Positions 5,134-31,484 of a stretch of DNA of 64,000 nucleotides are shown here, piece by piece. This stretch comes from Candidatus Aenigmatarchaeota archaeon. GTDB lineage: Archaea; Aenigmatarchaeota; Aenigmatarchaeia; GW2011-AR5. A program made the position numbers and the translations under genes. The notes under the pieces were generated by a model. That model saw nothing but the letters and a program-made list of their open reading frames with translations, was not told the DNA's origin and searched no databases. The DNA lies in contig JACPRW010000004.1 of assembly GCA_016193585.1 (NCBI GenBank), positions 1 through 64,000 of the forward strand, in the 5' to 3' direction. Each line of letters begins with the position of its first letter. Position 1 is the stretch's first letter.

Positions 5134-5581
5134 TATAGCGGATCAACAAAGGAATACCGGCATATTATAGCAAGTGACAGAACTATTCAGACAAAGTTCT
5201 GTCCTTGCTATAAGAAGATGACATTAGGAACCGTACGAAAACTAATGTCATCGACTATACTTTTGTCGTCCGCTACACGCGAAAAACAAGGTTTTCCGGT
5301 GCACCAAAAAGCTTTGCTTTTTGGGTGTACGTGAACCAAGATATATAGTGAAACAAGAAAATAACATCGGCATATTGCTTCTTGTTTCACCTATCCCCAG
5401 AAAGCAGAGCTCTCTGGGATCTCGAAGAACCTCTGTTCTTCGCAGATAGCAAACAAGGAAGTAATATCGTCAGATTCTAAGGAATCTGGCGAATTGTGCG
5501 ATTGCGAAGCAATCAGCACAATATATCCTGTTTATTTCCTTGTATTGCTATAATACCTGATTATTTACTTGGTTCACTATA
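5134..5581. repeat. nested hairpin complex (twin-hairpin elements within one another plus triloop hairpins)
   Basis: Outer stem gtgaaccaag (5331-5340)/cttggttcac (5568-5577) encloses a family B twin hairpin (5344-5552) that itself contains four extra hairpins. Confidence 0.85.
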
Positions 5582-5820
5582 ACTTCCTGAATTCAGTGTA
5601 CGTTAGTGCCTTTTCGTAAATCCCATCATTTCTTATTTTTTGCAGAATATCCTTGTCGCCTGAAACGAGATAGGCTTGTTCGTTCATTGCGATGAAAAGG
5701 CGCATGAAATTCAGCAGCGTTCTTAGTTTCACTGGAGATTTTGATACGGCATCAACAAGTCTTTCATTAAACTCAAAACGAGGAATAGAGGTGCGTGCAG
5801 AGGAATCTAGAAGCCTGTCC
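5577..5820 (-). pseudogene. PIN-domain toxin, C-terminal fragment
   Basis: FNERLVDAVSKSPVKLRTLLNFMRLFIAMNEQAYLVSGDKDILQKIRNDGIYEKALTYTEFRKL; no N-terminus; abuts hairpin element. Confidence 0.5.
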
Positions 5821-5916
5821 CGGGTGAGCGAAACGTCAGCAACGGCAGGTATATGAGAATCTTTAAATATATTAACGTAATTAACGTAATGAACATAATA
5901 TGCATGAGGTGGTAGT

Positions 5917-6144
5917 ATGGTGAGCATAACGCTTTCGGTTGCTGAAGAACTAAAAAGAAAGATGGACGAGTTCCCTGAAATAAACTGGAGCGAGGTAGCG
6001 CGGCAGGCATTCGCGCAGAAACTGCGCGACCTTGAGTTCCTCAGGGAGTTCAAGTCCAAGAGCACGCTCACTGAGCACGATGCGCTGGAACTGGGGAGAA
6101 AAGTCAATAAAGGTGTTGCAAAAAGGCTCCGCGAGATGGTATAA
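5917..6144 (+). CDS. VapB-type antitoxin
   Basis: 75 aa immediately upstream of PIN toxin; MVSITLSVAEELKRKMDEFPEINWSEVARQAF. Confidence 0.75.
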   Translation: MVSITLSVAEELKRKMDEFPEINWSEVARQAFAQKLRDLEFLREFKSKSTLTEHDALELGRKVNKGVAKRLREMV

Positions 6145-6550
6145 GTGGATCTCGTGGTGGACGCTAACGTGCTGTTCTCAGCGCTCATCAAGGAAGGAAT
6201 TACATCAGAACTTCTTTTCGTTGAAGAGCTGCACCTGTACGCTCCTGAATACATCATTGCCGAATATGCACAGCATAAACGTTTCATTCTGGCGAAAACT
6301 GGGCGCTCAGATGAAGAATTTTCAAAACTGCTTTCTGTTGTGGGTAGAAGGGTATCGCTCGTTCCGATGTCTGAAGTAAAGCCGTTTGTACAGGAGGCTG
6401 AAAACATCTCTCCTGATCCTGATGACACCCCCGTATGTTGCGTTGGCGCTCAAACTGCGCTGCCCTATCTGGTCAAATGACAAACGACTCAAAGAACAAT
6501 CAGCAGTAAAGGTGCTTGACACAGGAGATCTGCTGAGGCTCGTCAGATAA
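6145..6550 (+). pseudogene. VapC/PIN toxin with frameshift at a C5 run (~6427-6431)
   Basis: MDLVVDANVLFSALIKEG...ISPDPDDTP; shifting one base restores YVALALKLRCPIWSNDKRLKEQSAVKVLDTGDLLRLVR*. Confidence 0.7.
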
Positions 6551-6615
6551 GTGTTCAATTCCTTGGCGATTTCATTTTTCATAGCATTCCACCACGATTG
6601 CCGGCATTGCCGCCC

Positions 6616-6828
6616 CTATAAAGGAATGTAGCGTTCGCGTTCACTCATAGCACCGTATGCCTGTTTCCCCTCAATTCCCGCCAGCCGCTCCCCGGGCGCC
6701 GCAACTTTGCCGTCGAGCTCCTGCACCGCCGTGGCGGGCGTCCACGGCGACAGCTCGGAAACCTGATAGTAGCCGTCATTGCCCAAGCCCGATATTTTCC
6801 TGACTCTGCTTACCTTTTTACTACACAT
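6616..6828 (-). pseudogene. orphan fibre C-terminal coiled-coil fragment
   Basis: NDGYYQVSELSPWTPATAVQELDGK: recurring post-S74 segment. Confidence 0.65.
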
Positions 6829-6882: not shown

Positions 6883-7143
6883 TCATTGATAGACTTTCGG
6901 TCTCTTGTCAATTTTCACTATACCTATCAAATTATTTTTGTAATCCACTTCATAAAGTATTCTGTAAACGCCAACCCTGACCCTGAAAAGACCTTTTGAG
7001 CCCTGAATTGATTTCGTGTCATGAATTACAGGCGCTCGCGTAAGCTCTTCTATTTTCTGCATAATCCTTTTGGCAATGATTTTTTCAGCTTTCTTCAGGA
7101 ATTTGTCAGCCTGATTAGAATATGATACTTCAAACATTATCAT
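6883..7143 (-). CDS. RelE/ParE family toxin
   Basis: MFEVSYSNQADKFLKKAEKIIAKRIMQKIEEL...GLFRVRVGVYRILYEV. Confidence 0.85.
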   Translation of the reverse strand: MIMFEVSYSNQADKFLKKAEKIIAKRIMQKIEELTRAPVIHDTKSIQGSKGLFRVRVGVYRILYEVDYKNNLIGIVKIDKRPKVYQ

Positions 7144-7346
7144 AATCCTAGTTCTTTCTTCAGTTTTTCATGCGATTTTAGCCTTCCCCGTGACTTTTCC
7201 TTTTCGTAATTCAATAAAGCCTTATAATCGTCTTCTGTCATTATGCTGTCTATATCTACCATATGTTCCTTTATCTCAACAACTTCCTTCTTAAGGAATT
7301 CCAAATCCTCTTGTATCTTGTTCAATATTTCAGTTTCCATTTTCAA
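7140..7346 (-). CDS. antitoxin partner of RelE
   Basis: 68 aa, 4-nt overlap with toxin; ...MTEDDYKALLNYEKEKSRGRLKSHEKLKKELGL. Confidence 0.7.
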   Translation of the reverse strand: MKMETEILNKIQEDLEFLKKEVVEIKEHMVDIDSIMTEDDYKALLNYEKEKSRGRLKSHEKLKKELGL

Positions 7347-7418
7347 TCCCTATTAGTTAATAACAACGGTGAATTTAAATAAGTAACTCCAGCCAAAACC
7401 CACAATAAGCTTTGTTTT

Positions 7419-7547
7419 CCATGTCCCACATTTTACGAGAAAAAGCCCCGAATTCTTCATTCTTCATCTCTGCCCGAAATGTGCAGAAAGCAAAGCTTTC
7501 TGACGTGCCAAAGAAACTGTGTTTCTTTGGGCATATCCGGGACATGG
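7419..7547. repeat. triloop-hairpin cluster (2-hairpin version)
   Basis: CCATGTCCC/GGGACATGG outer stem; CAGAAAGC-AAA-GCTTTCTG and CCAAAGAAAC-TGT-GTTTCTTTGG. Confidence 0.85.
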
Positions 7548-7583
7548 ACTCCCGACCCAGTGGAATGCTGCCCTTATGTGCCT

Positions 7584-8560
7584 CTAGTAGCCTGAATTTT
7601 CAGTTTCTGGATTTCTGCCTTTAGTAAAATAATATCTGTCTTCAATCCTTCGTTTTCCCTCCCAAGCCGCGCTAGTTCCGCATCCTTTTCGGCTTTCAGC
7701 TCCTGCACCGCCGTGGCGGGCGTCCACGGGGACAAGCTCCGGGACCATATACTTGACCACTGGCAATTCCTTTTCCTATGGATAAATCGTTACGGTCGGC
7801 TCATAGGTAGCAACGTCGCTTACTGACCACACCTCGACCATGACCGTGTTGAACGTGCCGACCGAGGTATCTGCGGGCACCCCCATTCCGACACCGCTAC
7901 GTACTGCTGGTTCCCGGCTTCGGTGCCGGTGTTGCGCTCAATAAACGTGACGCGGATGAAGTTGACGTGCGCCGTCACGGCCACGGAGATGTTGACAATC
8001 ATCTGCACGGAGTTCCGGGATGTCCCGCCGTCCATGTACACACGATAGCGGCCTTTCGTGCTGTCGTTGTTATTCGCGCCCTGGATCAGTGTCGTACCCG
8101 TCGACAAGAAGCCGAGCGTGGCCCGCGCCTGGCCCGAAACATCAAGCTTTGTTGCCGGGCTCGCCGTCCCGATGCCGACGTTGCCTGCTTCTACTATTAA
8201 CCCATAATTGTTCGTAGCACCAGAGGCAAGGAAATATCCTCCAACGTTGGTTGTTGCGCCACTACCATATGCTTGAAACACGCCCCCGTAGTTGGTTCCC
8301 GTCGTAGCGGTATTACTTCCCCTTACTGCTTGATCGTTAGCTGTAGAGGTCTGTACGTCCAATTTATAACCCGGACTCGCCGTCCCGATGCCGACGTTGC
8401 CGCTGTTATTGATCACAAGAAGGTTCGTGGTGGTTCCCGCATCCGTGTTCTTGCTGATGTAGAGGTCGCCACCGATCGTCCAGATGTCCCACCAACGCTT
8501 GTTGGCCGCCCCGCCGCCGTTGACGAGGCTTTGCCGATATTATTCAGAATTGAGCATTTT
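7584..8560 (-). pseudogene. 5'-truncated fibre module (GNVGIGT repeats, receptor-like segment, coiled coil)
   Basis: NNSGNVGIGTASPGYKLDV...AGNVGIGTASPATKLDVSGQA...; no start, frameshift before VPADTSVGTFNTVMVEVWSVSDVATYEP. Confidence 0.75.
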
Positions 8561-8582: not shown

Positions 8583-8789
8583 TTATTCCACCATTACTTT
8601 AAAAGGCAGTTCGCCGCTTTTTGATATGCTTACATTAAGCTTCTCAAACCCTATTATTTTCCCTTTTTTGTCCTTTTTTAAAATAATTTCCTGTCCAGTT
8701 TCTTCGCATAAAAACTCTTTTTTCGGCTCATCAAACCACACATCTACCGTATCCCCTTCTTTGTTGAATACTACTATTATTTTTTCCAT
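8583..8789 (-). CDS. DUF2283 protein (antitoxin-like)
   Basis: MEKIIVVFNKEGDTVDVWFDEP...KIIGFEKLNV. Confidence 0.75.
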   Translation of the reverse strand: MEKIIVVFNKEGDTVDVWFDEPKKEFLCEETGQEIILKKDKKGKIIGFEKLNVSISKSGELPFKVMVE

Positions 8790-9088
8790 ATAATGCCACC
8801 TTCTTTTATCTTATCTGTTATGTACGCAGTAATTATATAACCTTTTCCGTTTTCATGCTTACAGACAACACAGCAAAAATAGCCATTGTGTTTTCTGTAA
8901 TAAAGATATGTCTTTTCATCGTGTTTGCTTTTTCTTATTTCAACAGGATCTTTAAGTGTAATTTTTACAACATCTTCTTTGCCTGTCATACTTGGATGCT
9001 TGATTGCTATAATGAATTCCCAATATTTTCTTGTTGTCCTTATTTTCTTTCCTGAAGCAGACATGACTTCAAAATATACATCATCCAT
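8777..9088 (-). CDS. putative toxin partner of DUF2283
   Basis: MDDVYFEVMSASGKKIRTTRKYWEFIIAIKHPSM..YLYYRKHNGYFCCVVCKHENGKGYIITAYITDKIKEG. Confidence 0.65.
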   Translation of the reverse strand: MDDVYFEVMSASGKKIRTTRKYWEFIIAIKHPSMTGKEDVVKITLKDPVEIRKSKHDEKTYLYYRKHNGYFCCVVCKHENGKGYIITAYITDKIKEGGIIWKK

Positions 9089-9166
9089 AATTATATTTGA
9101 TTAGTGCCTATTAATTCATTTCTTGTTATTTTCACTCTAACTAAAATCCATAATAAGCTTTGTTTT

Positions 9167-9347
9167 CCATGTCCCACATTCCGCGGCAAAAAAGCCCCGA
9201 ATTCTTCAGATTTCAGCTCTGCCCGAAATGTGCAGAAAGCAAAGCTTTCTGACATCTAAGAAATGCTTTGAGCATTTCTGGATGTTGAAAACCAAAGGTT
9301 TTCAAACATGCCAAAGAAACTGTGTTTCTTTGGGCATATTCGGGACA
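9167..9347. repeat. triloop-hairpin cluster (4-hairpin version)
   Basis: Same element as 7419-7547 plus two extra hairpins (9253-9284, 9285-9305). Confidence 0.85.
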
Positions 9348-9376
9348 CAGGCTCCCGACCCTGTGGAATGCTGCCT

Positions 9377-9890
9377 CTATGTGCCTCCATTGCCCAATAC
9401 TTTGACTTCCTGCTTCAGCATCTCAATGTCGGACTTCATGGCTCTGTTTTCCTTCTTCAGGGCGTCCTTTTCGGCTTTGAGCTCCTGTATAGCCTTGATA
9501 ATCACAGGCTGCGGGAGCTCCGAAACTATAAGATACCCGTCATCCCCTACCCTGACAAGTTCCGGATAATTCCCGGCTGTTTCCTGGGCGATAGGCCCGG
9601 TTGCCCTTTCCCCTGTAGCTATCACAGTATAGTCAAAAAGCGGAATACCCAGCACATATTCAAGCTTAGGCGACGCGCTGGTGATATTTGCCTTCAGCCG
9701 CGCGTCAGACGAGCAGCTCCACGTAAGCCCGGTGGTGGAGGGCTGTGCCTCGCAAAGACCAGAAGAATCTTCAAGGAGAAGCACATCATCAGCACTTGCG
9801 GTGTTTTCCACTTCTAATTTGCTTCCCGGGCTTGCCGTCCCGATGCCGGGGTTGCCCGAGTTGAACTTTATTCTGATAAACTGTCCCAGA
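9377..9890 (-). pseudogene. 5'-truncated fibre with intact S74/endosialidase-chaperone domain and coiled coil
   Basis: NSGNPGIGTASPGSKLEVENTASADDVLLLEDSSGLCEAQ...SSDARLKANITSASPKLEYVLGI..GPIAQE...DIEMLKQEVKVLGNGGT. Confidence 0.8.
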
Positions 9891-10498: not shown

Positions 10499-11130
10499 CT
10501 ATTCGCCTCCATTGCCCAATACTTTGACTTCCTGCTTCAGCATCTCAATGTCGGACTTCATGGCTCTGTTTTCCTTCTTCAGGGCGTCATTTTCCGCCTT
10601 CATCTCCTTCACGCCCTCGACCAGCAGCGGCACAAACTTCGTATAGTCAAGCTGCAGATACTGCGTGGTAGTATCGCCGACAGTCTCCTGTAGTATCGCT
10701 TCTGGCAGCACATTTTGCACCTCCTGGGCGATTAAACCAACACTGTGCGGGCTGTTGTTAAACCTTGCCATTAGCGGGTAATGCGACAAAACTTCGCTGT
10801 CGTTCACGCGCCAGTCAAAAGACACGCCGCGGAGCTTCTCAATCTTGCCCAGCGCGCCGGTGATGTTCGCGATGTTCGTTTTCAGGCGTATGTCATAGTA
10901 GGTTCGAATAATACTGGAACTTTTCATTCGAACCTGCTATACTGTATGTTCAGCATAAAATGTTCCAAAATCAACTGAACATACTATCAGACTCGGAAGC
11001 GATGCAGCTGCTGGCAGTGTCGTCGCTGTTTGTATCAACGCACACACTCCCTCCTTTCACTTCCACTTTTCCTTTGTTGGGGTTCGTCGCCCCGATGCCG
11101 GGGTTGACCGATATTCTTTTCGGCCTTTGT
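10499..11130 (-). pseudogene. fibre S74 domain gene interrupted by twin-hairpin element 10896-10986
   Basis: ...SVNPGIGATNPNKGKVEVKGG..SSCIASES | DIRLKTNIANITGALGKIEKLRGVSFDW..VGLIAQEVQNVLPEA... Confidence 0.8.
10896..10986. repeat. twin-hairpin element, family A copy 2 (91 bp, flanked by TCA/TCA)
   Basis: Excision with one TCA retained restores ESDIRLKTNI reading frame. Confidence 0.9.
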
Positions 11131-11167: not shown

Positions 11168-11779
11168 CTAGAGGCTATCGCTCCAAATTTCATTTACGGT
11201 GAATCCAATCCTGCCTCTATTAAGAAATTCCTTAAATTTCTGTGATTTATCCAAAGGCATTACAACAACACTTTTTTCCAGTTTTTTTCCGCCTAGGCTT
11301 TTTATGATGCCTTTTTTCTCATATCTTTTCCTGCCGATCTTTTGTGCATAACCGTAAAGCCTTCTCCACATGCCAACCTTTCTTGCTCTTGCCATTCCGC
11401 CAAAATCCAGCCTGAACAGAAGGTAAGCTTTCATGTTTTCCGGGAGTTCGTTGTACCTTCCATAGAGGATGATGCCATAACTCTGCATGCTTCTCTTTAG
11501 ACTCCGCCATTTATCAAGGTTGCCAACTTTTAAGGACAACGGATTGGAAATGCCTTTCAGCCCCCATTTCTCGCCGAATGTTTTCTCAAAAACTTTCAAT
11601 ACGTTTTTTATCTCCTTCTCCTCAGGCTTGTCAGTATCAATAAAGACATCTATGTCGCTTTCCCTGTCAAACTCCCCGGTAACAACCGAACCGAACAGAA
11701 TAACTCTTTTTGGCTCTATTCCATTCTCCAATAAAAATGAGGTGAAATCAAGGGCATACGCAATCATTTTATTTTTCAT
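11168..11779 (-). CDS. MNT-type nucleotidyltransferase (antitoxin of HEPN/MNT)
   Basis: RVILFGSVVTGEFDRESDIDVFI: GSx..SDxD motif. Confidence 0.85.
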   Translation of the reverse strand: MKNKMIAYALDFTSFLLENGIEPKRVILFGSVVTGEFDRESDIDVFIDTDKPEEKEIKNVLKVFEKTFGEKWGLKGISNPLSLKVGNLDKWRSLKRSMQSYGIILYGRYNELPENMKAYLLFRLDFGGMARARKVGMWRRLYGYAQKIGRKRYEKKGIIKSLGGKKLEKSVVVMPLDKSQKFKEFLNRGRIGFTVNEIWSDSL

Positions 11780-12167
11780 CTTTCATCAGCTCCTTTAGCA
11801 TTAATTCCAGTTCGTTTACAAGTTCAATGACTTTCTTTACTTCCTTTTCGGATTTTTGCGATCCATACGTCAGGTTTTCTGATTTGCTTTCAAGCTCTAC
11901 CATCTTAGCGACTATAGGATTCTTCTTCGGGAAATCAGGGAATTTCCCGCCCACTTTCTGGCTCTTGAACCACCGGTGATTTATCTGAAAACCCGCATCA
12001 ATCCTGCCTATTTTGTGCAGATAAGCAGTCAGGAGCTCAGTTATCCCGCGGGAGGCATGCGTGCCAACAATCCTATGGGATTTCTCAATGCCGCGGTTTA
12101 TTGCCCAGTCTATCGCATCCCTGTGCTCCTGAAATGCCTTCAGATGCTCTTCTATTCTCATACGCAT
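11769..12167 (-). CDS. HEPN-like partner protein
   Basis: 132 aa, 11-nt overlap with MNT gene. Confidence 0.6.
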   Translation of the reverse strand: MRMRIEEHLKAFQEHRDAIDWAINRGIEKSHRIVGTHASRGITELLTAYLHKIGRIDAGFQINHRWFKSQKVGGKFPDFPKKNPIVAKMVELESKSENLTYGSQKSEKEVKKVIELVNELELMLKELMKDEK

Positions 12168-12410
12168 TCTTTATGTTACCGAGTATATAAAGTTTATGTT
12201 ACTCAATAACATATGTAACTGAGTATACTATAGTTATGGTGCTGAGTCACTAAGAATTAATAAAACCTCGGAACCCCGCAAAAATTCGGCCACAAGTCGT
12301 AAGATTTGCAGTTCCTGCGAAAGTCTTCCGGGGAAAATCTGCAAAACTGAAGGACTGCCTGAACAAGCGCAGGCACTCCGTCTCCTGAAGCTGTATTTTG
12401 AGCCAGTCCA

Positions 12411-12519: not shown

Positions 12520-12780
12520 CCGTGCCCACTACGAGCTTACGGTTTTGGTTAATCTGCTGACCTGACGTCGTCACACCAAGCCTACCGAACGTTACTCTGG
12601 ACATTTAATACGCCATTCACATCTAGCGTGTAACTTGGCGTCGTCGTGCCGATCTACAAAGAAGCGGAGCTTCTTCTTGCGGAAAGCTGAGCTTTCCGAA
12701 GACTCAAGAAAGCTGTGCTTTCTTCGAGTTGAGAGCTCAGAAACCTCTGGTTTCTGCAGCTGCCGACGTTGCCGCTTGAC
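12520..12780 (-). pseudogene. fibre fragment with triloop-hairpin cluster inserted between GNVG and IGTT
   Basis: SSGNVG[36 codons of hairpins]IGTTTPSYTLDVNGVLNVQSNVRFGRLGVTTSG. Confidence 0.75.
12654..12771. repeat. triloop-hairpin cluster (4 hairpins) inside fibre repeat motif
   Basis: AAGAAGC-GGA-GCTTCTT; CGGAAAGC-TGA-GCTTTCCG; AGAAAGC-TGT-GCTTTCT; CAGAAACC-TCT-GGTTTCTG. Confidence 0.85.
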
Positions 12781-12999
12781 TTAAGAAGAAACTTTTGAAA
12801 TCTCAGAAAAAACCTTTGGAGGCACGACCTTACTTGCGGACAAAATCTCTATGCCTATAAGCTTTTTGTCTTCATCAAAGTCCAGAATTATGTCATCGTT
12901 CAGGGCAATCGTGCTTTTTACCTCACCTTTTCCAATTCTATCCTTTAAGTAAATATATGCTGCATCCACTTCCTTATCAAAACTTAATCTCATACCCAT
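12781..12999 (-). CDS. DUF2283 antitoxin-like
   Basis: MRLSFDKEVDAAYIYLKDRIGKGEV...LDFDEDKKLIGIEILSAS. Confidence 0.85.
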   Translation of the reverse strand: MGMRLSFDKEVDAAYIYLKDRIGKGEVKSTIALNDDIILDFDEDKKLIGIEILSASKVVPPKVFSEISKVSS

Positions 13000-13005
13000 C
13001 CCTTA

Positions 13006-13221
13006 TCAATATATTGTTATTATCTTTATATGCGTTTCTTTTTCCGTGTAAACAACACTGACGTATCTGCCTTCAAATTTCTTTACTGCAATCTTTCGTC
13101 CATCAAAAGACGTCTTCGTATAATCTGAAGACCTTATAGTTTCTTCAACCTGCCTCTCAGTTATATCTCTTTCAAACCTTCTCTGGATTGCATGGCTTGA
13201 ATAGCGAATAGGCTTTGCCAT
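13006..13221 (-). CDS. DUF4258-like toxin partner
   Basis: IRYSSHAIQRRFERDITERQVEETIRSSDYTKT...VYTEKETHIKIITIY. Confidence 0.8.
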   Translation of the reverse strand: MAKPIRYSSHAIQRRFERDITERQVEETIRSSDYTKTSFDGRKIAVKKFEGRYVSVVYTEKETHIKIITIY

Positions 13222-13289
13222 ACATCCATCTTGTTGACTTTACTATAAATCTTCTTTCTGCAACGTTTCCGCTATGGTTTCTCACTTCC

Positions 13290-13880
13290 CTTCCAGCCTT
13301 GAGAGCTTTGCCTTCAGCTCATCCTTTTCGGCTTTCAGCTCCTGCACAGCCTTGACGAGTGCCCACTGCGACAGCTCTGGGACCATATACTTGACCACTG
13401 GCAATTCCTTTTCCTATGGATAAATCGTTACGGTCGGCTCATAGGTAGCAACGTCGCTTACTGACCACACCTCGACCATGACCGTGTTGAACGTGCCGAC
13501 CGAGGTATCTGCGGGCACCCGACGACGCTGCGCACTTGCGCCCCGCCGGTGACAACGCTATTACTGTCGGTGACCCATTCCGACACCGCTACGTACTGCA
13601 GGCTCCCGCCTTCGCTGGCGGTGTTGCGCTCAATAAACGTGACGCGGATGAAGTTGACGTGCGTTGTGACAGCCACAGAGATGTTGACGATCATCTGCCC
13701 AGAGTTCAGGGCTGTGCCACCGTTCATGTAAACCCGGTAGCGGCCTTTCGAGGTGTCATTGTTGTTGGCGCCCTGGATCAGGGTCGTGCCGGTCGACAAA
13801 AAGCCGAGTGTGGCCCTCGCCTGCCCTGAAACATCAAGCTTTGTTGCCGGTCCCGTCGTCCCGATGCCGACGTTGCCGTT
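13290..13880 (-). pseudogene. 5'-truncated fibre module, paralogue of 7584-8560
   Basis: Shares LSTGTTLIQGANNND.SKGRYRVYM.GGT..NS.QMIVNISVAV and the same downstream frameshift. Confidence 0.7.
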
Positions 13881-14027
13881 ATGTCATTATTTTTTCATGT
13901 CCCTGCTGCCATTTGTCCCATTTCCTCACATTGCCGATAGTATCGTGTTAAAAATAATGCCGAGACCGATGATATCCAAGAACAATCTAAGAATTTACTT
14001 TAAGTCACTGAGACTCAAACAATACGT

Positions 14028-17170: not shown

Positions 17171-17185
17171 TTTTGGCTGCGAATA

Positions 17186-21276: not shown

Positions 21277-23042
21277 CTATTCGCCTCCATTTGACTGAAT
21301 TTTCAGCTTTTCGACTTCGTGCCTCAATAATCCAACATCCGCTTCCATGTTGCTGTTTTTCTCCTCAAGTTTCTGAACTGCAAGCCGCAATGCCATGTTA
21401 GCGTTATTTAACATTGTTATGTTTTTGTCCTGTTCCTTTGCAATATCCAATAGGTAAACTGTCAATAGCTTGTATTCAACGCTTTCAATCTGCCCGTTGT
21501 AGTAACCGACCAGTTCTGGAATCACAGGCTCAACGTCTTCAGCAATCAAGCCCACGCTGGACTCATTCCTATTCTTCCACTTGAAACTTACAGGCTGAAG
21601 CTGGAACACTTTATCCTTATCAACAGACAAAGGCTCAATATTCTCCTTATATCTTCTGCTGGATGAGCAGGTGGCAAACGTATTCATACCGCTAACAGTT
21701 GTCGTGTCATAACAGAGTGAGTTTCCAGCCGCACCCGCAAGGGTATTAACCGCAGCTTTCCTGTTAGCGGTTATACTAAATGCTGGTTGATATGCACTGC
21801 CCTGACTTGTAACAAATGAAAAAGATATACCTGATTCTAAACCGCTGTCTGTCGTGAAATTCATACCCCCTTGAGGCCCAGCGGTTGATATAGTTGCACC
21901 ACTTCCTACTCCGTAATAATCAAGAACTTGGATAGTTTTATAAACTCTTATTGTGCCATTTACCTCTAGCTTAATAGTGGAAGCTGGACTCGTCGTCCCG
22001 ATGCCGACGTTGCCACCGAAATATGCTGCCACATTTTTAGTGGACCCAGTAGTAGGACCTTCAACATAAAGCCCGTAGACGTTGGTAATTGTTGTGCTCG
22101 CGCCTTTTGATCCTGCACTTATATAAAGGCCATACTGATTTGTTAATGTCCTGGCTGATCCATCATCAATAGAATAAGGTTCTATGACCTGACCAAAATG
22201 GCTGGTTCCATCTCCGGTCATTTTCATTGTTGGACGTAAATCTAAACCATATTGAGCTGCGGATGCGGCGCTTATGTCGGCTGTAGTTGTTGATGCTTGA
22301 CCGAATTGCAGAAACCGTGCATTTGTTGGAGTTACTGCTCCACCAAGGACGTGAACTACAGCCCCCGGGCTCGTCGTCCCGATGCCGACGTTGCCTGCTG
22401 CGCTATTGACGTAGAGCGTGCTGCCGCCAACGCTCAGGTTGTGCTGGACGGTGAGGTTGCGCTGGACCGTGAGGTTCTCGGTGATGGTCATGTTGCCGCG
22501 CACATCTAATCGCTCTCCAGGACTCGCCGTCCCGATGCCGAGGTTGCCGGTGGTATCAATCGTCACGTAATCACTGGTCGCGTCTCCGTTCGAGATAAAA
22601 AAACATCCGGCGCACCCTGATTCTGTCCGTTGCCAGAGGGTATAGCCCAAGGTCTGCGAGGTCGCGTCCGAATCAAGTCGAATGCCTGCGCTGCCAGCAG
22701 CAGCCACATGCAATCCTTTGATTCCTACACCTGAGAACGGACTCGCCGTCCCGATGCCGATGTTGCCGGAGCTTGCGTTGACGAAGAATCTGCTTGAGTC
22801 TGTTGCGTTGGTAACCTCGAACCCGCCCCGATTGCTGGATGAATTGACGGTTAACGTATTTGCTGGAACTGTCGTCCCGATGCCAACGTTGCCGGTGGAT
22901 TTCACGAAAGTCATCACAGTTACATCCGGATCAGGCTGAAAATCAACGATTTTGAATTTGTCGCTGTCCAGTCCATCTACCTGAATGCCCCATGTCTGTG
23001 CATCATTAACAAGGGATATATTCATGCGTAGACCGGTCAACT
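21277..23042 (-). CDS. C-terminal half of a tail-fibre-like protein with S74 endosialidase-chaperone domain
   Basis: Starts RMNISLVNDAQTWG; repeated GNVGIGTT.P; SSRRYKENIEPLSVDKDKVFQLQPVSFKWKNRNESSVGLIAEDVEPVIPEL; coiled coil. Confidence 0.85.
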
Positions 23043-24649
23043 TGTAATCTTGTGTCGGTATCAAGCGTCGCCGTCCCGATGCCGACGTTGCCGCCACTGA
23101 CTGCCAGATAGACAGAATCATTAACCTCCAAAGCCCCGCCTGTGCCATTCACTTGCAAACGCCGGTAAGGGCTCGTCGTCCCGATGCCGACGTTGCCTGT
23201 CCAATCCATAGTCATGACTCGTGTATAAGTGACTCCAGGGTCGGCCTGATTCGTGTCCACTTCAAAGCCCAGCTCATCATTCGCATCATTAGCGTCGCCA
23301 GTCCTAATAACTAATGACCTAAACCCTGGTCCTGTAATGTAATTCGTCAAGTCAGTAACATCGCTAAGTGTAATATCATCTATACCTGTTACATTTCCAT
23401 TCAGTTCTACATTTCCGACAACATCTAGAATTGCTGAAGGCACCGTCGTCCCGATGCCGACGTTCCCCGAGCTGCCGTTGATGAACAATAGCTGCGTCCC
23501 GGTCGTGTTCTCGATGCGGAGGGCGCCGAGCGCGTTCGAGCTGTTGATGTGCACGGTGCCGAGCGGGCTGGTCATGTTGAGGCCGATGCCGACCTTCTGG
23601 TTCTCGCCGATGGCAAGGTAGACGCTCTCGTTCGTCTCGAGCGAGACGCCGGCTGAGCCGTTTATTTGGAGCTTGCGGCGCGGCGCGACGGTGCCGATGC
23701 CGACGTTGCCGGAAGTATCAATTGTCACTCTGTCCACCGCATTAGTTTGTATTCGTAATGGATGATTTGATTGCGTTCCCAAATAACCTATGGATGTATC
23801 GCTGAACATCCGAGTATCGGCATTACCGACGCTTCGCCTAATCCTAATTCCCGTTGCTCCGCTATCGAGAACATCAAGAATAGTCCCCGGCGGCACCGCC
23901 GTCCCGATGCCGACGCTGTCGTTGAAGTACGCGCCGCCGAAGTGGGTGACGAAGGCGTTCACCGTGTTCGCCGAGTTGCGCCACTCGGTGAGGTTGACGG
24001 TCTGGCCGGGAAAGCCGCGGACGATGAGCGGCCTCGCGCCGGTGCCGCTCGCATTGATGGTGATGTCCGTGCCGTTGCCGCCGATGAGCAGGGTGTTCGC
24101 ATTCTCGGCGAGCGCCTGCTCGGTCTGGAGCTTCAAAACGCCCGCGCCCGTGGTGAGGAGCGGTATGAAGTCCGTGTTGTTCCACCCGTAGAGCAGCGAC
24201 ACGTTGTTCGGCGTGATGTTCATGCCGTTCGACCAGACGGTGCCGGAGATGTTCGCGTGGCCGACAATCTGGAGCGCCTGGTTGGGCGACCCCGAGATGC
24301 CGATGCCGAGACGGTCGGTCGTGATGTTGCCGGCGTCGATGGACGACGTGCCCAGGTACGACGCGCCGGTCACGTTGAGGGTGCCGTTGACGTGGAGCGT
24401 GTGCTGGGGCGTCGAGGTGCCGATGCCGACGCGGTTGTTGAGCGAATCGACGAAGAGCGTGCCCGTGTCAACGGTGAAGTTGCCGGAGATGTTCGCGCTG
24501 CCGGCGCTGATGTTGAAGAGGTTGATGTCGACCTTCGGCCTGCCGTCGCTCGTCGCGAGCCACGGGATCCACTGCGTCCCGTCCCACACGTAGTTGAGCG
24601 ACACGTTCGTGTCGGCGTGCACGGGCAGGGCGAGGAGCACTGCCATCAT
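23006..24649 (-). CDS. N-terminal half of tail-fibre-like protein
   Basis: Signal MMAVLLALPVHADTNVSLNYVWDGTQWIPW; GNVGIGT repeats; overlaps next ORF out of frame. Confidence 0.85.
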   Translation of the reverse strand: MMAVLLALPVHADTNVSLNYVWDGTQWIPWLATSDGRPKVDINLFNISAGSANISGNFTVDTGTLFVDSLNNRVGIGTSTPQHTLHVNGTLNVTGASYLGTSSIDAGNITTDRLGIGISGSPNQALQIVGHANISGTVWSNGMNITPNNVSLLYGWNNTDFIPLLTTGAGVLKLQTEQALAENANTLLIGGNGTDITINASGTGARPLIVRGFPGQTVNLTEWRNSANTVNAFVTHFGGAYFNDSVGIGTAVPPGTILDVLDSGATGIRIRRSVGNADTRMFSDTSIGYLGTQSNHPLRIQTNAVDRVTIDTSGNVGIGTVAPRRKLQINGSAGVSLETNESVYLAIGENQKVGIGLNMTSPLGTVHINSSNALGALRIENTTGTQLLFINGSSGNVGIGTTVPSAILDVVGNVELNGNVTGIDDITLSDVTDLTNYITGPGFRSLVIRTGDANDANDELGFEVDTNQADPGVTYTRVMTMDWTGNVGIGTTSPYRRLQVNGTGGALEVNDSVYLAVSGGNVGIGTATLDTDTRLQVDRSTHEYIPC

Positions 24650-25719: not shown

Positions 25720-25986
25720 GTGATGCCTATGGAAAAGGATTTCATGAAGAGGATTGTAGTGGACCCAAAGATCATGGTAGGCAAGCCTATAATCAAGGGA
25801 ACCCGGATCACCGTGGAAGCCATCGTCCGCAGGGCCGCTCAAGGCATGACGTTTGATGAAATACTCGAAGATTATCCTTACATCACCAAGGAAGACATCA
25901 AGGCCGCTCTCTTCTATGCCGAAAGGCTCGTCGCTGGCGAAGAGATATTCCCGGTAATTGTCGATAAGCATGCGGTTTCTCGTTGA
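25720..25986 (+). CDS. DUF433 antitoxin
   Basis: IVVDPKIMVGKPIIKGTRITVEAIVRRAAQGMTFDEILEDYPYITKEDIKAALFYA. Confidence 0.9.
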   Translation: MMPMEKDFMKRIVVDPKIMVGKPIIKGTRITVEAIVRRAAQGMTFDEILEDYPYITKEDIKAALFYAERLVAGEEIFPVIVDKHAVSR

Positions 25987-26311
25987 TGAAGATTTGGGCA
26001 AAAGACTTTCAAATGTCCTGAACAGGCATGGGTATGAAGCTTTGTTTGTAGGCGACCTGATGCGCAGCTCTCCTGATGACAAGATTCTTGAATTCGCCGA
26101 GAAGGAAAATCTCATACTAGTGACGGGTGATAAAGATTTTGGCGAGCTTATTTTTAGGATGAAGAAATTGTCAAAAGGCGTTATTCTGTTCAGGGCATTA
26201 ACAACAGATCCGGAAAAGTTATTTGAACTGGCAAAAAGCGTGCTGGACAAATCCATCGGCAAGTTCATAGTGGTTGAAGAGGACCGCATCAGGGTAAGAA
26301 AACTGGCATGA
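25958..26311 (+). CDS. DUF5615 PIN-like toxin
   Basis: MRFLVDEDLGKRLSNVLNRHGYEALFVGDLMRSSPDDKILEFAEKENLILVTGDKDFGELIF. Confidence 0.9.
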   Translation: MSISMRFLVDEDLGKRLSNVLNRHGYEALFVGDLMRSSPDDKILEFAEKENLILVTGDKDFGELIFRMKKLSKGVILFRALTTDPEKLFELAKSVLDKSIGKFIVVEEDRIRVRKLA

Positions 26312-26504
26312 CGCCCGACAGCATCTTCATAGCCTGCGCCAATGCAGCAAACGTTCTCGTCACCGACGGCAAAAAGACCGCGCCATGAGTCAAGGCAGGC
26401 GTGAGTCCCAAACTGCTCCGTGACATGACGTAATTGTCCCGCGCGCGCCACTGCCATTCGCTGGCATATCATTTTTCCCATCTCACGAGTTTCTTTAGTG
26501 AAAA

Positions 26505-26710
26505 CACGACGTTCATCGTTTTTCAGGTTTGCCCGGAAACCCGTGGGCTGCAAAGAACCGCAGGTTCTTTGGGCTCTCAGGGAGCTTCGCTCGCTGCAGT
26601 CATGATGGTGCAGTAGGCGAATGCCGGATTCGCCTGATGCCGCGAAATGCCCGGCTTTCCCGGATGTTGTGCCGTAATCACTGAAATTTTCGAAACCTTT
26701 CGTTTTCATC
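26505..26710. repeat. hairpin-rich repeat copy 2
   Basis: Near-identical to 19610-19815, immediately 3' of a fibre coiled-coil fragment (26690-26840). Confidence 0.8.
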
Positions 26711-26845
26711 GTTTCCCACCATGCTCCAATGCCGCCGCTCCCGCCCTCAGTTCCTTGTTCTCCTCATCCAGCTCCTGCGCCGCCGTGGCGGGCGTCCACG
26801 GCGACAGCTCCGACGCCTGGTAGTAGCCGTCGTCGACAGGTCACT
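26690..26845 (-). pseudogene. orphan fibre coiled-coil fragment
   Basis: YQASELSPWTPATAAQELDEENKELRAGAAALEHGGKR*. Confidence 0.6.
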
Positions 26846-26877
26846 GCTGTCGAGCCTTCAACCGCCATAGCGGATGT

Positions 26878-27222
26878 CACTTTTTTGCCTCCTCGGTGAG
26901 CATGCCTGATAGCTGCTGCTTCAATACGGGTAAATCACTCTTGATAATATCCCATGTTAAATTGAGGTCTACGCCGAAGTATTCGTGAATCAGAACGTCC
27001 CGTAATCCGGCTATCTTCTTCCATTCCACATCAGCGTGCTTCTTCGTGAAGTCCGGAGGCAGTTCTTGACCGCCTCTCCGATTATTTCCAGTCGCCTGAG
27101 CACCGCATCCTGCACCTGGACGGCATGCATGAAATCAGCTTTTGGCATGTTTCGTGTGAATTCTTCGATTCGTTCGATTGACTCAAGGATGTGCCGCAGG
27201 AAAATACGCTCATCTTTCTTCG
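26878..27222 (-). pseudogene. HepT (DUF86 HEPN) toxin with 1-nt frameshift (~27070)
   Basis: DERIFLRHILESIERIEEFTRN..DAVLRRLEIIGEAVKN / shift / LPPDFTKKHADVEWKKIAGLRDVLIHEYFGVDLNLTW (Rx4HxY motif). Confidence 0.75.
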
Positions 27223-27563
27223 TATATTCTCACCTCTTCTTTGAGGATGGTGTCTCTCAGGAGGGGGTGCAGGGAGTGGTACGTGAGCACATCAACTTTC
27301 TTGTTCAGTTTCTTTTCCAGGTCGAGTTTGAGTCCCACCAAATCAAGCAGGCTCTTGTTTCCTTTGAACTCAATGAGGATATCGATATCGCTGCTCTTGG
27401 TGGCTTCGCCCCGCACGACAGAGCCAAACATACCTGCCCGTACCACATCGTTGCGCTTGAGAATGGGTATAATCTCCTGTGTGAGTGCACGTAGGTGCAC
27501 GTCTCGTGCTTGCTTCGTCATTACCATCACCTCTGCAACTGCCATTTTGCCGCCTTTTCTCAC
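27210..27563 (-). CDS. MntA-type nucleotidyltransferase antitoxin
   Basis: AGMFGSVVRGEATKSSDIDILIEF. Confidence 0.9.
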   Translation of the reverse strand: MRKGGKMAVAEVMVMTKQARDVHLRALTQEIIPILKRNDVVRAGMFGSVVRGEATKSSDIDILIEFKGNKSLLDLVGLKLDLEKKLNKKVDVLTYHSLHPLLRDTILKEEVRIYEER

Positions 27564-27856
27564 TTCAGCTCCAGCGCCGAAATTCTTGCCTCAAACTCTG
27601 AATTCTTTGCCTTCAGTGCGTCGTTTTCGGCTTTCATCTCCTGCGCCGCCGTAGCGGGCGTCCACTGCGACAGCTCCGGGACCTGGCAGTAGCCGTCGTC
27701 GCCGAATCTTTCCATGGGTACGTCAATCTTTGTAATCATGTCGGTTATCAGGGTGACCGCCGCGGTGAGCTTCTGCCTCGACATGTCCTTCGAGTCGTAC
27801 ATGTTGCCGTATTGCCCCCTGTCTCTGCTATAGCTGCCGTATGTCATTTGATTCAT
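27560..27856 (-). CDS. fibre coiled-coil fragment fused to a short unrelated N-terminus
   Basis: GDDGYCQVPELSQWTPATAAQEMKAENDALKAKNSEFEARISALELK. Confidence 0.5.
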   Translation of the reverse strand: MNQMTYGSYSRDRGQYGNMYDSKDMSRQKLTAAVTLITDMITKIDVPMERFGDDGYCQVPELSQWTPATAAQEMKAENDALKAKNSEFEARISALELK

Positions 27857-28179
27857 ACCTCAACGCCGTGCTTGACGGCATCTCTTACAATCGTTATTCC
27901 TTTCGACTTTGCCCTGAATTCCTCAGGCGTGTAGCACAGGAAGTCGACGGGCTTGTTTTTTTTCTGGGCGATATGCCATTCCTTTGAGAGTGCAGACATG
28001 AAGACCGCCCGCTTTTTCACATTTTTTGAGACGACAAGCAGGTCTATATCACTCCCTTCCCTGGTCTTGCCAGTAGCTTGCGAGCCGAAAAGTATTATCT
28101 TGTCTATAGCAAATTTACCGGCCGCCTTTTTCTTGAAATCCTTGGCCAGTTTTATTGCTTCAGGGTTTGCTTTGCCCAT
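27853..28179 (-). CDS. MNT nucleotidyltransferase
   Basis: DKIILFGSQATGKTREGSDIDLLVV. Confidence 0.9.
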   Translation of the reverse strand: MGKANPEAIKLAKDFKKKAAGKFAIDKIILFGSQATGKTREGSDIDLLVVSKNVKKRAVFMSALSKEWHIAQKKNKPVDFLCYTPEEFRAKSKGITIVRDAVKHGVEV

Positions 28180-28517
28180 GTTAACACCTTCCTCGAGCTC
28201 TTCAGCAGAGATTTCGCAGTTTTTTCGTCTGTTTTATCTTCCGAATCCGGATAGCGAGTAATAGTATAATAAGGATTTACAGAAGCGCAGCTTTCAACGA
28301 CGCTCTCGGGTGCGCTGACGCTTTTCGCAAGTGTCAATAGGTCATGAATCCTGTCAAACCTGCCGAGTCTTTCTATCTGGACGGCCTTGAGCGATTTTTC
28401 AGCTGCCTGCTGTGCGAAAAACACGGCAGCATTCAGTTTTTTGCCCTTCAGATTGTAGCGTGCTGTTTCAATGTCCTCCTTCGCCTTCTTCAGCCACGCT
28501 TTTGTTTCGTTTTTCAT
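28152..28517 (-). CDS. HEPN-domain protein
   Basis: AWLKKAKEDIETARYNLKGKKLNAAVFFAQQAAEKSLKAVQIERLGRFDRIHDLLTL. Confidence 0.9.
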   Translation of the reverse strand: MKNETKAWLKKAKEDIETARYNLKGKKLNAAVFFAQQAAEKSLKAVQIERLGRFDRIHDLLTLAKSVSAPESVVESCASVNPYYTITRYPDSEDKTDEKTAKSLLKSSRKVLTWAKQTLKQ

Positions 28518-28762
28518 GCTTCGTCCCTTATTTCCCTGACGGTTTCAGACAAGGTTTTGCCGGATTTCTTCGTGGCTCGTGATGTGATCTTTCTTACTTC
28601 TTCCTTGGTGCCAGCCTTGTCGCCATACTTCAGCGCAAGCTGGCGTATCGCGTCCCGCACGACCTCGGACTGCGACTTGTACATGCCGCTCTTCACGAGC
28701 TCTTCGGCTATCCGCTTTATCTCTTCTGTCACGTCTGCGCTCATGATTACCACATTATTCAC
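28514..28762 (-). CDS. ribbon-helix-helix (ParD/CopG-like) protein
   Basis: VTEEIKRIAEELVKSGMYKSQSEVVRDAIRQLA. Confidence 0.8.
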   Translation of the reverse strand: MNNVVIMSADVTEEIKRIAEELVKSGMYKSQSEVVRDAIRQLALKYGDKAGTKEEVRKITSRATKKSGKTLSETVREIRDEA

Positions 28763-28803
28763 CTCATAGTTTCTATTAGCCCGCTAATATTTAAGCCTCT
28801 TTT

Positions 28804-28987
28804 CCATGCCCCGCATTCCGCGATGGAAAAGCCCCGGATTTTTCCGGAATCCAGGGTTCCCGAAATGTGCAGAGAGCAAAGCTTTCTGACATCTAAGAAA
28901 TGCTTTGAGCATTTCTGGATGTTGAAAACCAAAGGTTTTCAAACATGCCAAAGAAACTGTGTTTCTTTGGGCATATCCGGGACATGG
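28804..28987. repeat. triloop-hairpin cluster (4-hairpin version)
   Basis: Same hairpins as 9167-9347 and 21063-21244. Confidence 0.85.
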
Positions 28988-29214
28988 ACTCCCTCCCGCT
29001 TCTTACGGAATGCTGCCTCTATTCGCCTCCATTGCCCAATATTTTGACTTCCTGCTTCAGCATCTCAATGTCGGACTTCAATGTCCTGTTCTCTTCCTTG
29101 ATGGCATCATTTTCCTCGTCCAGCTCCTGCGCCGCCGTGACGGGCGTCCACTGCGACAGCTCCGGGACCTGGCAGTAGCCGTCGTCGCCAGCTTGAAAAC
29201 CTTGATATCATTCC

Positions 29215-30453
29215 TCAGTCTCCTCCAATCTTCATATAATATACTCTCCACCCGTCAAGTACTTCGCTCGCCGTGTCGTCGGTCATGGTATAGGTTACGG
29301 TATGGTCACCTGTGCCTGATAGGCTCACGGAATGCGTAACATCAGCAGCACCGGTGTCTGCAATTGTTGCAGAGTAAACATTGGAAGATGCACCGCCAAC
29401 AAGATACGATGATATTCTGCCATGGTCATTGCCATTTGTCCACGAATACAAGTAAACAACCCCAATCTCATTAGCATCTATTTTAAAAGACCCGCTTGCA
29501 TCGCCCGTTCCGCTTGCAATGAGGTTGCCGAACCCGCCGGTTCCCGAGTTAGGGTCGCTGGTTATCCTGCCGGTAAAGTTGATGCTCCCCGCAACATCGA
29601 GTGCCTGGTTAGGGGTCGTGTCGCCGATGCCGACGTTGCCGCTTCCTTTAATTGTGACTGTATTCTTCCAGCTTCCCGTTGAATCGACAATATCAAAAGC
29701 CAAAGTGGCCCCGTTATTTTGAAAAGTATCTGTATATCCCCAATTTATATTTGCCGTGCTATAATCAAGGACTTGACCAGTATACCTACTTTCCATATAA
29801 ATCATATCTCTCACAGTGGTGCTCCAAGTTTTAGCAGTGCTGTCATCGAGTTGTAATTGAGTAACCTCTCCAGACCCATCTTTTTGAATATGCAGCGGAG
29901 CCGCTGGAGTCCCCGTCCCAATCCCGACTCTGCCTGCCGCGCTATTGACGTAGAGGGTGCTGCCGCCGACGCTCAGGTTGTGCTGGACCGTGAGGTTGCG
30001 CTGGACCGTGAGGTTCTCGGTGATGGTCATGTTGCCGGCGACGTGCAGCCGTTCTGAAGGGCTCGTGGTCCCGATGCCGAGGTTGCCGTCAGTATTTATT
30101 ACCATACGGTATTGTGCCGCAGTAATATCGTAAAACACCAAAGCATCAGACGTGGTGCCATCCGCCGCAATATTCCATGACCTTGCATCGTTCTTTAGAT
30201 CAATACCTGGGTACGAATCAGCAACTGTACTTTGTATAGTCAAACCTGCGGTTCCCGCCCCAGATGTACTGTAGATATGTAGCATATCCCCCGGCCCCGT
30301 CGTCCCGATGCCGACGTTGCCGGTGGATTTCACGAAAGTCATCACAGTTACATCCGGATCAGGCTGAAAATCAACGATTTTGAATTTGTCGCTGTCCAGT
30401 CCATCTACCTGAATGCCCCATGTCTGTGCATCATTAACAAGGGATATATTCAT
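29215..30453 (-). CDS. C-terminal half of tail-fibre-like protein
   Basis: MNISLVNDAQTWGIQVDGLDSDKFKIVDF... GNVGIGTT repeats; ATGA overlap with upstream ORF stop. Confidence 0.8.
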   Translation of the reverse strand: MNISLVNDAQTWGIQVDGLDSDKFKIVDFQPDPDVTVMTFVKSTGNVGIGTTGPGDMLHIYSTSGAGTAGLTIQSTVADSYPGIDLKNDARSWNIAADGTTSDALVFYDITAAQYRMVINTDGNLGIGTTSPSERLHVAGNMTITENLTVQRNLTVQHNLSVGGSTLYVNSAAGRVGIGTGTPAAPLHIQKDGSGEVTQLQLDDSTAKTWSTTVRDMIYMESRYTGQVLDYSTANINWGYTDTFQNNGATLAFDIVDSTGSWKNTVTIKGSGNVGIGDTTPNQALDVAGSINFTGRITSDPNSGTGGFGNLIASGTGDASGSFKIDANEIGVVYLYSWTNGNDHGRISSYLVGGASSNVYSATIADTGAADVTHSVSLSGTGDHTVTYTMTDDTASEVLDGWRVYYMKIGGD

Positions 30454-30998
30454 GCGTCGGTATCAAGCGTCGCCGTCCCAATCCCGACGTTCCCCGAGCT
30501 CCCATTGACGAACAATAGCTGCGTCCCGGTCGTGTTCTCGATGCGCAATGCGCCGAGCGCATTCGAGCTGTTGATGTGCACGGTGCCGAGCGGACTGGTC
30601 ATGTTGAGGCCGATGCCCACCTTCTGGTTCTCGCCGATGGCAAGGTACGCCGACTCGTTCGTCTCGAGCGAGACGCCGGCAGAGCCGTTTATTTGGAGCT
30701 TGCGGCGCGGCGCGACGGTGCCGATGCCGAAGCTGTCGGCGAAGTAGCCGTTGACGCCGTAGACGCTCGCCCAGCGGAGGCTCGCGGCGCCGAGGTTGTA
30801 CGTGTTGTCCGACTTGGGGTTGATGCCGATGCTCTCGGTGAGGTTGAGGTCGGTCATGAGCGCGCCCGCGGTGGTCACCCTGACCGGCGTCCAGTGCGTC
30901 TGGTTCCAGCCGTAGAGCAGCGAAACGTTAATCTCGGCGTGTACGGGCAGCGCGAGGAGCGCCAGCGCAAGCACGATGAAGATTCTCGTAGCATGCAT
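30450..30998 (-). CDS. N-terminal half of tail-fibre-like protein
   Basis: Signal MHATRIFIVLALALLALPVHAEINVSLLYGWNQTHWTPV; GNVGIGTATLDTDA*. Confidence 0.8.
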   Translation of the reverse strand: MHATRIFIVLALALLALPVHAEINVSLLYGWNQTHWTPVRVTTAGALMTDLNLTESIGINPKSDNTYNLGAASLRWASVYGVNGYFADSFGIGTVAPRRKLQINGSAGVSLETNESAYLAIGENQKVGIGLNMTSPLGTVHINSSNALGALRIENTTGTQLLFVNGSSGNVGIGTATLDTDA

Positions 30999-31060
30999 CG
31001 TTAGTTCACCTCTCCGGCCGGCAAACCTTTACGTGTTATGGGGGCAAAGGGAATAGTGTG

Positions 31061-31210
31061 ATGCATATGAAAACAAAATCTGTAGCTGACACGAAGGAAT
31101 GGAAGAGGCTTGACGCTGCTATTCGAAAGGCTGCTAAGGACCCGGAATTCAGGAAAGCTCTGGATCGTTTTATTAGAATATCCTCTAACCATGAGCAATC
31201 ATCTCCTTGA
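31061..31210 (+). CDS. small putative antitoxin, 26-nt 3' overlap with convergent PIN gene
   Basis: MHMKTKSVADTKEWKRLDAAIRKAAKDPEFRKALDRFIRISSNHEQSSP. Confidence 0.5.
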   Translation: MHMKTKSVADTKEWKRLDAAIRKAAKDPEFRKALDRFIRISSNHEQSSP

Positions 31211-31484
31211 ACCCCTTGTAGGTGATAAATGCGGGGATATGCAACCCGAACTCCTGGCAAATAGCTTTGCAGGCAGGGAGCGCGTGTTCTGAGAGCATGC
31301 TTTTCCCGTCATTCGTCCTCGCTTCTTTCGCAACATCCCTTAATTCGTTTCGTATTGTTTTGGTCCCGTAAATTACATAGTGTCCGGGCACCAGCTTTGC
31401 CGATGTATCTCTTGCTAATGCACCGGTGATCAATTCGCCGTACACTGACGTGTCAAGCAATACCCGTTTCATTTTCTCGCCCAC
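31185..31484 (-). CDS. PIN-domain toxin (short)
   Basis: MKRVLLDTSVYGELITGALARD..YVIYGTKTIRNELRDVAKEAR. Confidence 0.65.
   Translation of the reverse strand: MGEKMKRVLLDTSVYGELITGALARDTSAKLVPGHYVIYGTKTIRNELRDVAKEARTNDGKSMLSEHALPACKAICQEFGLHIPAFITYKGFKEMIAHG

Follow-up and report, generated by a model that had tools for sequence, protein, structure and literature searches.

Silent-cassette adhesin and pilin loci, in which partial copies stand beside longer ones in direct orientation, recombine into expressed genes. Sedentary chromosomal integrons (superintegrons) hold long arrays of unlike toxin-antitoxin (TA) cassettes between repeats, with horizontal sharing of cassettes and a stabilising role thought to fall to the TA modules; TA modules stabilise the V. 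cholerae superintegron (PMC11551772), and archaeal integrons exist, often with TA cassettes (PMC9668308). Phage S74 tail fibres (K1F endosialidase, T5) join the S74 intramolecular chaperone to fibre repeats, whilst the mosaic adhesive trimer (MAT) fibres of Bdellovibrio are mosaic S74 fibres with V-G-G/N-x-x-P loop and SDxxxK motifs that are cellular, secreted and used by the attacking cell on its host in predator-prey contact (PMC10769870). Here we analyse a locus that shares features with each of these systems, located in 64,000 nucleotides of a Candidatus Aenigmatarchaeota archaeon (GCA_016193585.1, contig JACPRW010000004.1, positions 1 to 64,000; hereafter the window). Over about 26 kb (5577-31484), whole and broken genes for S74/GNVGIGT fibres are interleaved with about 15 unlike TA modules, an arrangement of which literature searches found no description. 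The explanation we favour, at a probability of roughly one half, is that the fibre slot of a pilus locus has expanded into a recombining store of adhesion fibres in which TA modules counter-select deletions.

The alternation of fibre pieces with unlike TA modules had been proposed in a sequence-only reading of the window and was borne out by a motif scan and by profile matches. GNVGIGT-like motifs numbered 20 within 5577-31484, every one on the minus strand, against none in 31485-64000 and zero to one in shuffled sequence; a looser VG..P..L pattern gave 15 matches, likewise only on the minus strand. Peptidase_S74 (PF13884) exceeded its cut-off of 22 bits three times (21508-21663, 10694-10894 and 9554-9709; 32-59 bits) and nowhere else in the genome (1.17 Mb, 10 contigs searched), and PHROGs labelled the fibre pieces as tail fibre proteins. 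In the same window, Pfam profiles matched HEPN, NTP_transf_2, HicA/HicB, PIN_2, PIN, ParE_toxin, DUF4258, DUF2283, DUF433 and DUF5615. The recurrence of fibre 3' ends amid differing TA families was also upheld, the coil end occurring seven times and the tail that follows its stop codon four times. Alternation per se was rejected as evidence of a cassette unit: it is weak evidence, because any TA module inserted in a fibre array will have fibre on both sides.

The fibre pieces and their tails are as follows, where L158 is the stretch of contig C6 of Ca. Woesearchaeota NC_groundwater_726_Ag (genome G156) used in the cassette comparison below.

29215-30998, minus strand: fibre A, two overlapping frames (30998-30450 and 30453-29215) with GNVGIGT-type repeats; PHROG tail fibre; blocks 92-94% identical to fibre B
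28801-29186, minus strand: coil fragment from GDDGY, then a stop and a tail repeat with hairpin cluster (repeat comparison)
27560-27706, minus strand: coil fragment (repeat comparison)
26478-26839, minus strand: coil fragment with second-type tail, 91% identical to 19581-19893
21277-24649, minus strand: fibre B, S74-terminated, frames 24649-23006 and 23148-21277 (PF13884, 4.7e-13); S74 part 74% identical in nucleotides to L158 5304-5794
21060-21291, minus strand: tail repeat following fibre B; identity to the Woesearchaeota copies 82-94%
19581-19893, minus strand: coil fragment with second-type tail (repeat comparison)
18551-18760, minus strand: fragment from upstream of an S74 domain, 75% identical to 9672-9856
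17801-18127, minus strand: fibre N-terminal fragment with signal peptide, 82-94% identical to 16970-17175
14682-16925, minus strand: fibre C, one long frame with uncertain start, then a coil at 14655; D1 block 89% identical to fibre B
13273-13900, minus strand: fibre fragment with coil, 88-99% identical to 7735-8181
10499-10927, minus strand: S74 and coil fragment (PF13884, 8.2e-16), its start interrupted by a 103-nt two-hairpin repeat (10887-10989)
9377-9811, minus strand: S74 and coiled-coil fragment (PF13884 match) with SDARLK catalytic motif
9163-9396, minus strand: tail repeat (repeat comparison)
7600-8416, minus strand: fibre fragment with coil (repeat comparison, open reading frame)
7410-7600, minus strand: tail repeat with shorter hairpin cluster (repeat comparison)
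6616-6828, minus strand: coil fragment (repeat comparison)

Self-comparison of the array returned exclusively direct repeats, an arrangement that favours deletion, duplication and exchange through homologous recombination. Fibres A, B and C have the D1 block in common, at 89-92% identity, and five coil fragments begin from one shared codon position (GDDGY or a variant) whilst each is preceded by unrelated sequence. The SDxxxK site differs between the three S74 pieces, reading SDARLK in 9380-9811, SSRRYK in fibre B (S-S-R-R-Y-K at the expected position) and YDIRLK in 10502-10927, where the catalytic Ser is replaced by Tyr. The 9377-9811 fragment is 67% identical in amino acids to a fibre end in a genome of the same family (G009, locus L027). 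Shared fibre blocks gave dN/dS values of 0.18-0.28 between paralogues and the HEPN/MNT pair 0.08-0.12 (Nei-Gojobori, small samples), indicating that both were under purifying selection. The sequence-only reading had envisaged a few full-length fibres among many fragments, and this stood in part: fragments and large fibres are both present, but the reading frame is broken in all large fibres except fibre C, hence in two of three. The frame of fibre A breaks at 30450, giving an ATGA overlap, and that of fibre B through one extra base at about 23035, so that different lesions fall on the same homologous spot. Phase variation or two-part translation is a possible explanation, as are assembly errors in this metagenome-assembled genome.

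The tail is a coil-stop-hairpin element of about 110 nt, with four copies in the window and 15 in G156, and no Rfam family matched it. Its stem (CATGYCCC...GGGRCATG) shows one exchanged pair, C-G/T-A/T-G, a compensatory change, and the simplest role for it is that of a transcription terminator. Leaving aside tails at a contig end, at least 14 of 18 have a same-strand TA gene or homologue within about 300 nt on their 3' side (hand count). The tails contain a four-hairpin cluster of about 105 nt, and at 12.65-12.77 kb a cluster related to it splits a GNVG/IG codon run, for which reason we regard the clusters as insertion-like in behaviour. Tandem clusters of two to five short hairpins (stems of about 8 bp, loops of 3-5 nt) with differing stem sequences were observed at several sites in the genome, in the window at 7481-7529, 9230-9332, 12650-12770, 21125-21229 and 28867-28969 and further at L170, L171 and L172.

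The two edges of the array are formed by pilus genes, as listed here.

35566-40380, minus strand: right edge, TadC (T2SSF), TadC-like, KaiC-like and pilus ATPase (T2SSE) genes (Pfam), syntenic in same-family genomes
502-5094, minus strand: left edge, pilin-like genes, several with homologues in the same place in G003, G008, G014 and G009

In same-family genomes, one or two fibre genes and zero to two TA genes occupy the type IV pilus operon slot that lies between TadC and the pilins, or stand just past it: DUF4258-like, PIN and a 1261-aa fibre in G003; PIN and a fibre in G007; a 1019-aa fibre and a second fibre in G014; and a fibre of at least 2016 aa in G008, where another S74 protein has a pilin-like hydrophobic segment at its N terminus. 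In G005 and G009 the contig stops before any fibre. Since relatives keep few fibre and TA genes in the same slot, we interpret the array as an expansion of the pilus-locus fibre slot, and the presence of fibre genes in that slot suggests that the fibres are probably cellular. A 97-nt repeat, in two fully identical copies (35373-35469 and 38194-38290) and two partial ones (4022-4121, inverted, and 5343-5394), is located at either edge of the pilus/fibre region, right as well as left. Inverted repeats of the terminal type were not found around the array.

The term tail fibre in the sequence-only reading thus calls for revision, as the modules are probably adhesion fibres of a MAT-like kind that belong to a type IV pilus locus, and not phage tail fibres. 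The best solved match to fibre B was Bdellovibrio bd2133 (8ond; E 0.0003), through the repeats only and with no single stretch significant; the S74 profile matches phage fibres and MyRF. The MAT loop motif is repeated in the window fibres, with SDxxxK intact in 9380-9811, and the two systems share GNVGIGT/VG-G/N-xxP repeats, a terminal S74 domain, several paralogues per genome and block mosaicism. In contrast to the Bdellovibrio fibres, those of the window are archaeal, placed at a type IV pilus locus and clustered with TA modules. Ultrasmall cells of the size of DPANN and candidate phyla radiation (CPR) organisms attach through pili-like appendages in 'Ag' groundwater (He et al., PMC7906910); the record titles of G156 and G009 carry the same 'Ag' tag, a possible link to that site.

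The TA modules between the fibre pieces are the following.

28152-28762, minus strand: ParD/RHH-like antitoxin and HEPN (HEPN 1.8e-27; ParD-like TIGR02606 3.5e-9, below cut-off)
27853-28179, minus strand: MNT nucleotidyltransferase (PF01909, 1.2e-13)
26877-27563, minus strand: MNT (PF18765, 8.7e-18) and frameshifted HepT, split across two frames
25720-26311, plus strand: DUF433-DUF5615 pair (7.7e-26 and 9.2e-21), 77% identical in nucleotides to L158 2321-2869
24862-25573, plus strand: HicB-HicA and truncated PIN_2 (Pfam)
19933-21023, minus strand: MNT-HEPN pair (Pfam)
18869-19525, plus strand: VapBC-like pair (PIN_2, 7.9e-20), VapB-like antitoxin without Pfam match
17316-17804, minus strand: PIN (PF01850, 1.3e-6)
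14028-14288, plus strand: ParE/RelE toxin (PF05016, 7.6e-7)
12781-13221, minus strand: DUF4258-DUF2283 pair (Pfam)
11168-12167, minus strand: HEPN-like/MNT pair (PF01909 on 11171-11779), 76% identical in nucleotides to L158 16896-17985
9914-10397, minus strand: DUF2283 (1.2e-17) and a partner (10.1-10.4 kb) without Pfam match
8583-9088, minus strand: probable TA pair by position and size only, without Pfam match
6883-7346, minus strand: RelB-like antitoxin and ParE/RelE toxin (PF05016, 1.6e-10), 90% identical in nucleotides to L158 13444-13762
5917-6480, plus strand: VapBC-like pair (PIN_2, 1e-15)

The recognised toxin and antitoxin genes, of types II and VII, form adjacent pairs, some with a partner that lacks a Pfam match; PIN-like pieces at 18.1 and 31.2 kb had no significant Pfam match. 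The fibre pieces keep to the minus strand throughout, whereas the TA modules lie on both strands, about ten co-directed with the fibres and about five opposed. Genes of TA type extend rightward to 35.4 kb (AAA_14-DUF4143, HEPN-MNT, Fic). MNT genes (PF01909) are enriched, with five of the 18 genome copies within 11-34.4 kb and 11 of 23 in the arrays of G156, which were located by fibre and tail homology, independently of TA content.

The contig scan of genomes returned nucleotide-level matches at the end of a 623-kb contig of G156 (L075). The 15 tail copies found there with the tail model lie at C1:0.2-9 kb and C6:37.6-50 kb, C6:1-16 kb is likewise fibre/TA territory, and the C6 array is adjoined by pilin, T2SSE and T2SSF genes. 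Its modules include MNT-HepT, HEPN-MNT, DUF433-DUF5615, ParE, PIN, HicA/HicB and AAA_14-DUF4143. Four pieces of the window align to L158: HEPN/MNT (11170-12257) at 76%, RelBE (7019-7342) at 90%, DUF433-DUF5615 (25728-26282) at 77% and S74 (21425-21909) at 74% nucleotide identity. Their order is DUF433, S74, HEPN/MNT, RelBE in the window and DUF433, S74, RelBE, HEPN/MNT in L158; the two are therefore partly collinear, with one swap and different intervening modules, and every shared piece keeps its orientation to the fibres. Homology of the RelBE and HEPN/MNT modules ends at or near the module edges. The proportion of synonymous differences (pS) between window and L158 was 0.15-0.19 for RelBE and 0.62-0.75 for the other cassettes, with 0.69-0.90 for the flanking pilus genes, whose products share 31-45% amino acid identity. 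These unequal values indicate that cassettes moved separately: RelBE was exchanged recently, whilst the other shared pieces reflect either old exchange or shared ancestry of the array. Exchange of cassettes between archaeal phyla is thus documented by RelBE at 90% nucleotide identity against flanking pilus proteins at 31-45%. Variation between related loci, the absence of which would have spoken against the sequence-only reading, was found in both comparisons, as copy number varies among same-family genomes and TA order partly differs in the other phylum. The RelE gene in L158 was shortened by a rearrangement.

The likeness to an integron drawn by the sequence-only reading did not extend to its machinery. 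Homology beyond the tail stops at 0-90 nt, varying by pair, with no fixed crossover nucleotide; a simple custom box scan for attC-like sites (R''/R', L''/L') gave none on either strand of three arrays; and tyrosine recombinases (PF00589) were absent from the arrays, with one weak match on another contig of the window's genome and three elsewhere in G156, both genomes being incomplete. We therefore prefer homologous recombination among the direct repeats to an integron as the explanation. The repeats here are fibre gene ends and the TA modules occupy both strands, unlike in integrons; relative to silent-cassette adhesin and pilin loci, the array has TA modules between pieces, and its partial copies are candidate donors. 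Comparison of the tail with phage DNA and of RelBE with plasmids gave no match.

In the expanded-slot explanation, the fibre would be a secreted trimeric MAT-like product, with signal peptide, GNVGIGT repeats, S74 chaperone and coiled coil, that probably aids host attachment by a DPANN episymbiont. Homologous recombination between tandem fibre copies, and between the directly repeated coil ends and hairpin tails, would allow pieces to be gained, lost and swapped, with partners that may include DNA acquired from other lineages. The TA modules would have settled 3' of fibre ends and been carried as cassettes, and because their loss would be harmful, deletions between repeats would be counter-selected. 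A stronger version, an integrase-free cassette array in which exchange takes place at the repeated fibre-gene ends, TA modules secure the array against deletion and DPANN phyla trade cassettes, so that episymbiotic archaea gain a heritable and diversifying stock of host-attachment fibres, is offered tentatively, as something we would sooner doubt than accept. Host recognition and switching in DPANN archaea is an open question, to which this array would contribute a concrete pilus-operon locus with MAT-like fibres and a possible route to their diversification; the related array with shuffled modules in another phylum suggests that lineages reshuffle and trade a store of attachment fibres. The array would also serve as a natural test of TA stabilisation of repeat arrays outside integrons.

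Several observations weigh against the store. The broken frames of fibres A and B and the frameshift in HepT mean that part of the array may be in decay, and in a sample of one genome per species no within-population swap was observed. Enrichment of PF01850 PIN genes in the array was not found (one of 21 genome copies), which suggests that the genome is TA-rich in general. Dense tail-bearing arrays occurred in only two genomes: among 156 Aenigmatarchaeota the tail model matched no genome besides that of the window, and among 371 sampled genomes of the phylum of G156 it gave one weak match (G185). Across 12 S74 loci of CPR and DPANN genomes, 66 small open reading frames (ORFs) included three MNT and one HEPN, with no general dense TA association.

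These observations lend themselves to a serious rival, namely that a dispensable, expanded fibre locus has passively accumulated selfish TA modules and hairpin repeats, since insertion there causes little harm and TA modules cannot be lost, without any store of fibres. The frame breaks in fibres A, B and HepT, the hairpin clusters and 103-nt repeat inserted in fibre codons, the truncated RelE of L158 and the abundance of TA genes outside the array all fit a sink of this kind; purifying selection on fibre blocks over most of their divergence, conservation of fibres in the pilus slot of relatives and preservation of cassette orientation to fibres across phyla do not, and we consider it possible but on balance improbable. 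Considerably less probable is a true site-specific cassette system, analogous to an integron, with the tail as the site of a putative recombinase. A tail repeated four and 15 times, common to two phyla, with a compensatory change in its stem and mostly followed by a same-strand TA gene or homologue, would suit such a site, but the lack of a fixed crossover nucleotide, of attC-like sites and of an array tyrosine recombinase argues otherwise, and the tails, being fibre-gene 3' ends, may be mere terminators.

That the locus is a defence island placed at the pilus operon by chance, with antiviral HEPN-MNT, Fic and AAA_14-DUF4143 and the fibre pieces as bystanders, seems unlikely. Several array modules match the PADLOC models PDC-S01, PDC-S09 and PDC-M05A; these describe only candidate defence systems, however, no established system was recognised, and the conserved, collinear element is the fibre repeats. 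Least probable of all, to the point of being nearly dismissible, is a degraded prophage or the tail module of an injection particle. S74 pieces do match phage tail fibre families, and one phage fibre in IMG/VR is 70% identical in amino acids to an S74 domain of the Woesearchaeota array, but phage S74 tail fibres belong to phages, whereas this array occupies the same pilus operon slot as in same-family genomes, its fibres have signal peptides, and among solved structures the close match is to a cellular MAT adhesin. Phage proteins matching fibre B were fibres only, at less than 60% identity and at about 23-33% among the matches listed. Pfam scans of the scanned array and flanking genes recognised no capsid, portal, terminase or other further phage gene, and pilus and TA genes instead, and a scan of viral contigs with fibre B, L158 fibre, MNT and tail patterns found no homologous array. 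An exact tail match in viral contigs (L173) was judged to be due to chance.

A number of further features were recorded. In G156, a pilus ATPase (L162:4058-7114) contains an intein with a LAGLIDADG-like domain, and a frame that stays open for at least 4999 aa (L163, L168:14022-16000 and the start of L158; C6:14-32 kb) lies between two array stretches and is part of a giant protein, probably of the cell surface. A bacterial single-cell contig, Patescibacteria AH-259-L05 (L055), carries an S74 domain 64% identical in amino acids to the query with HEPN-MNT and ParE-like genes nearby, possibly through sharing across domains. In the window, a MITE-like two-hairpin repeat of 97-103 nt occurs at 1252-1354, 10887-10989 (inside an S74 gene) and 57216-57312, the copies being 92-96% identical. 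Two tRNA matches of 136-147 nt (60966-61101 and 58068-58214), reported by Rfam and not by ARAGORN, perhaps represent intron-containing genes.

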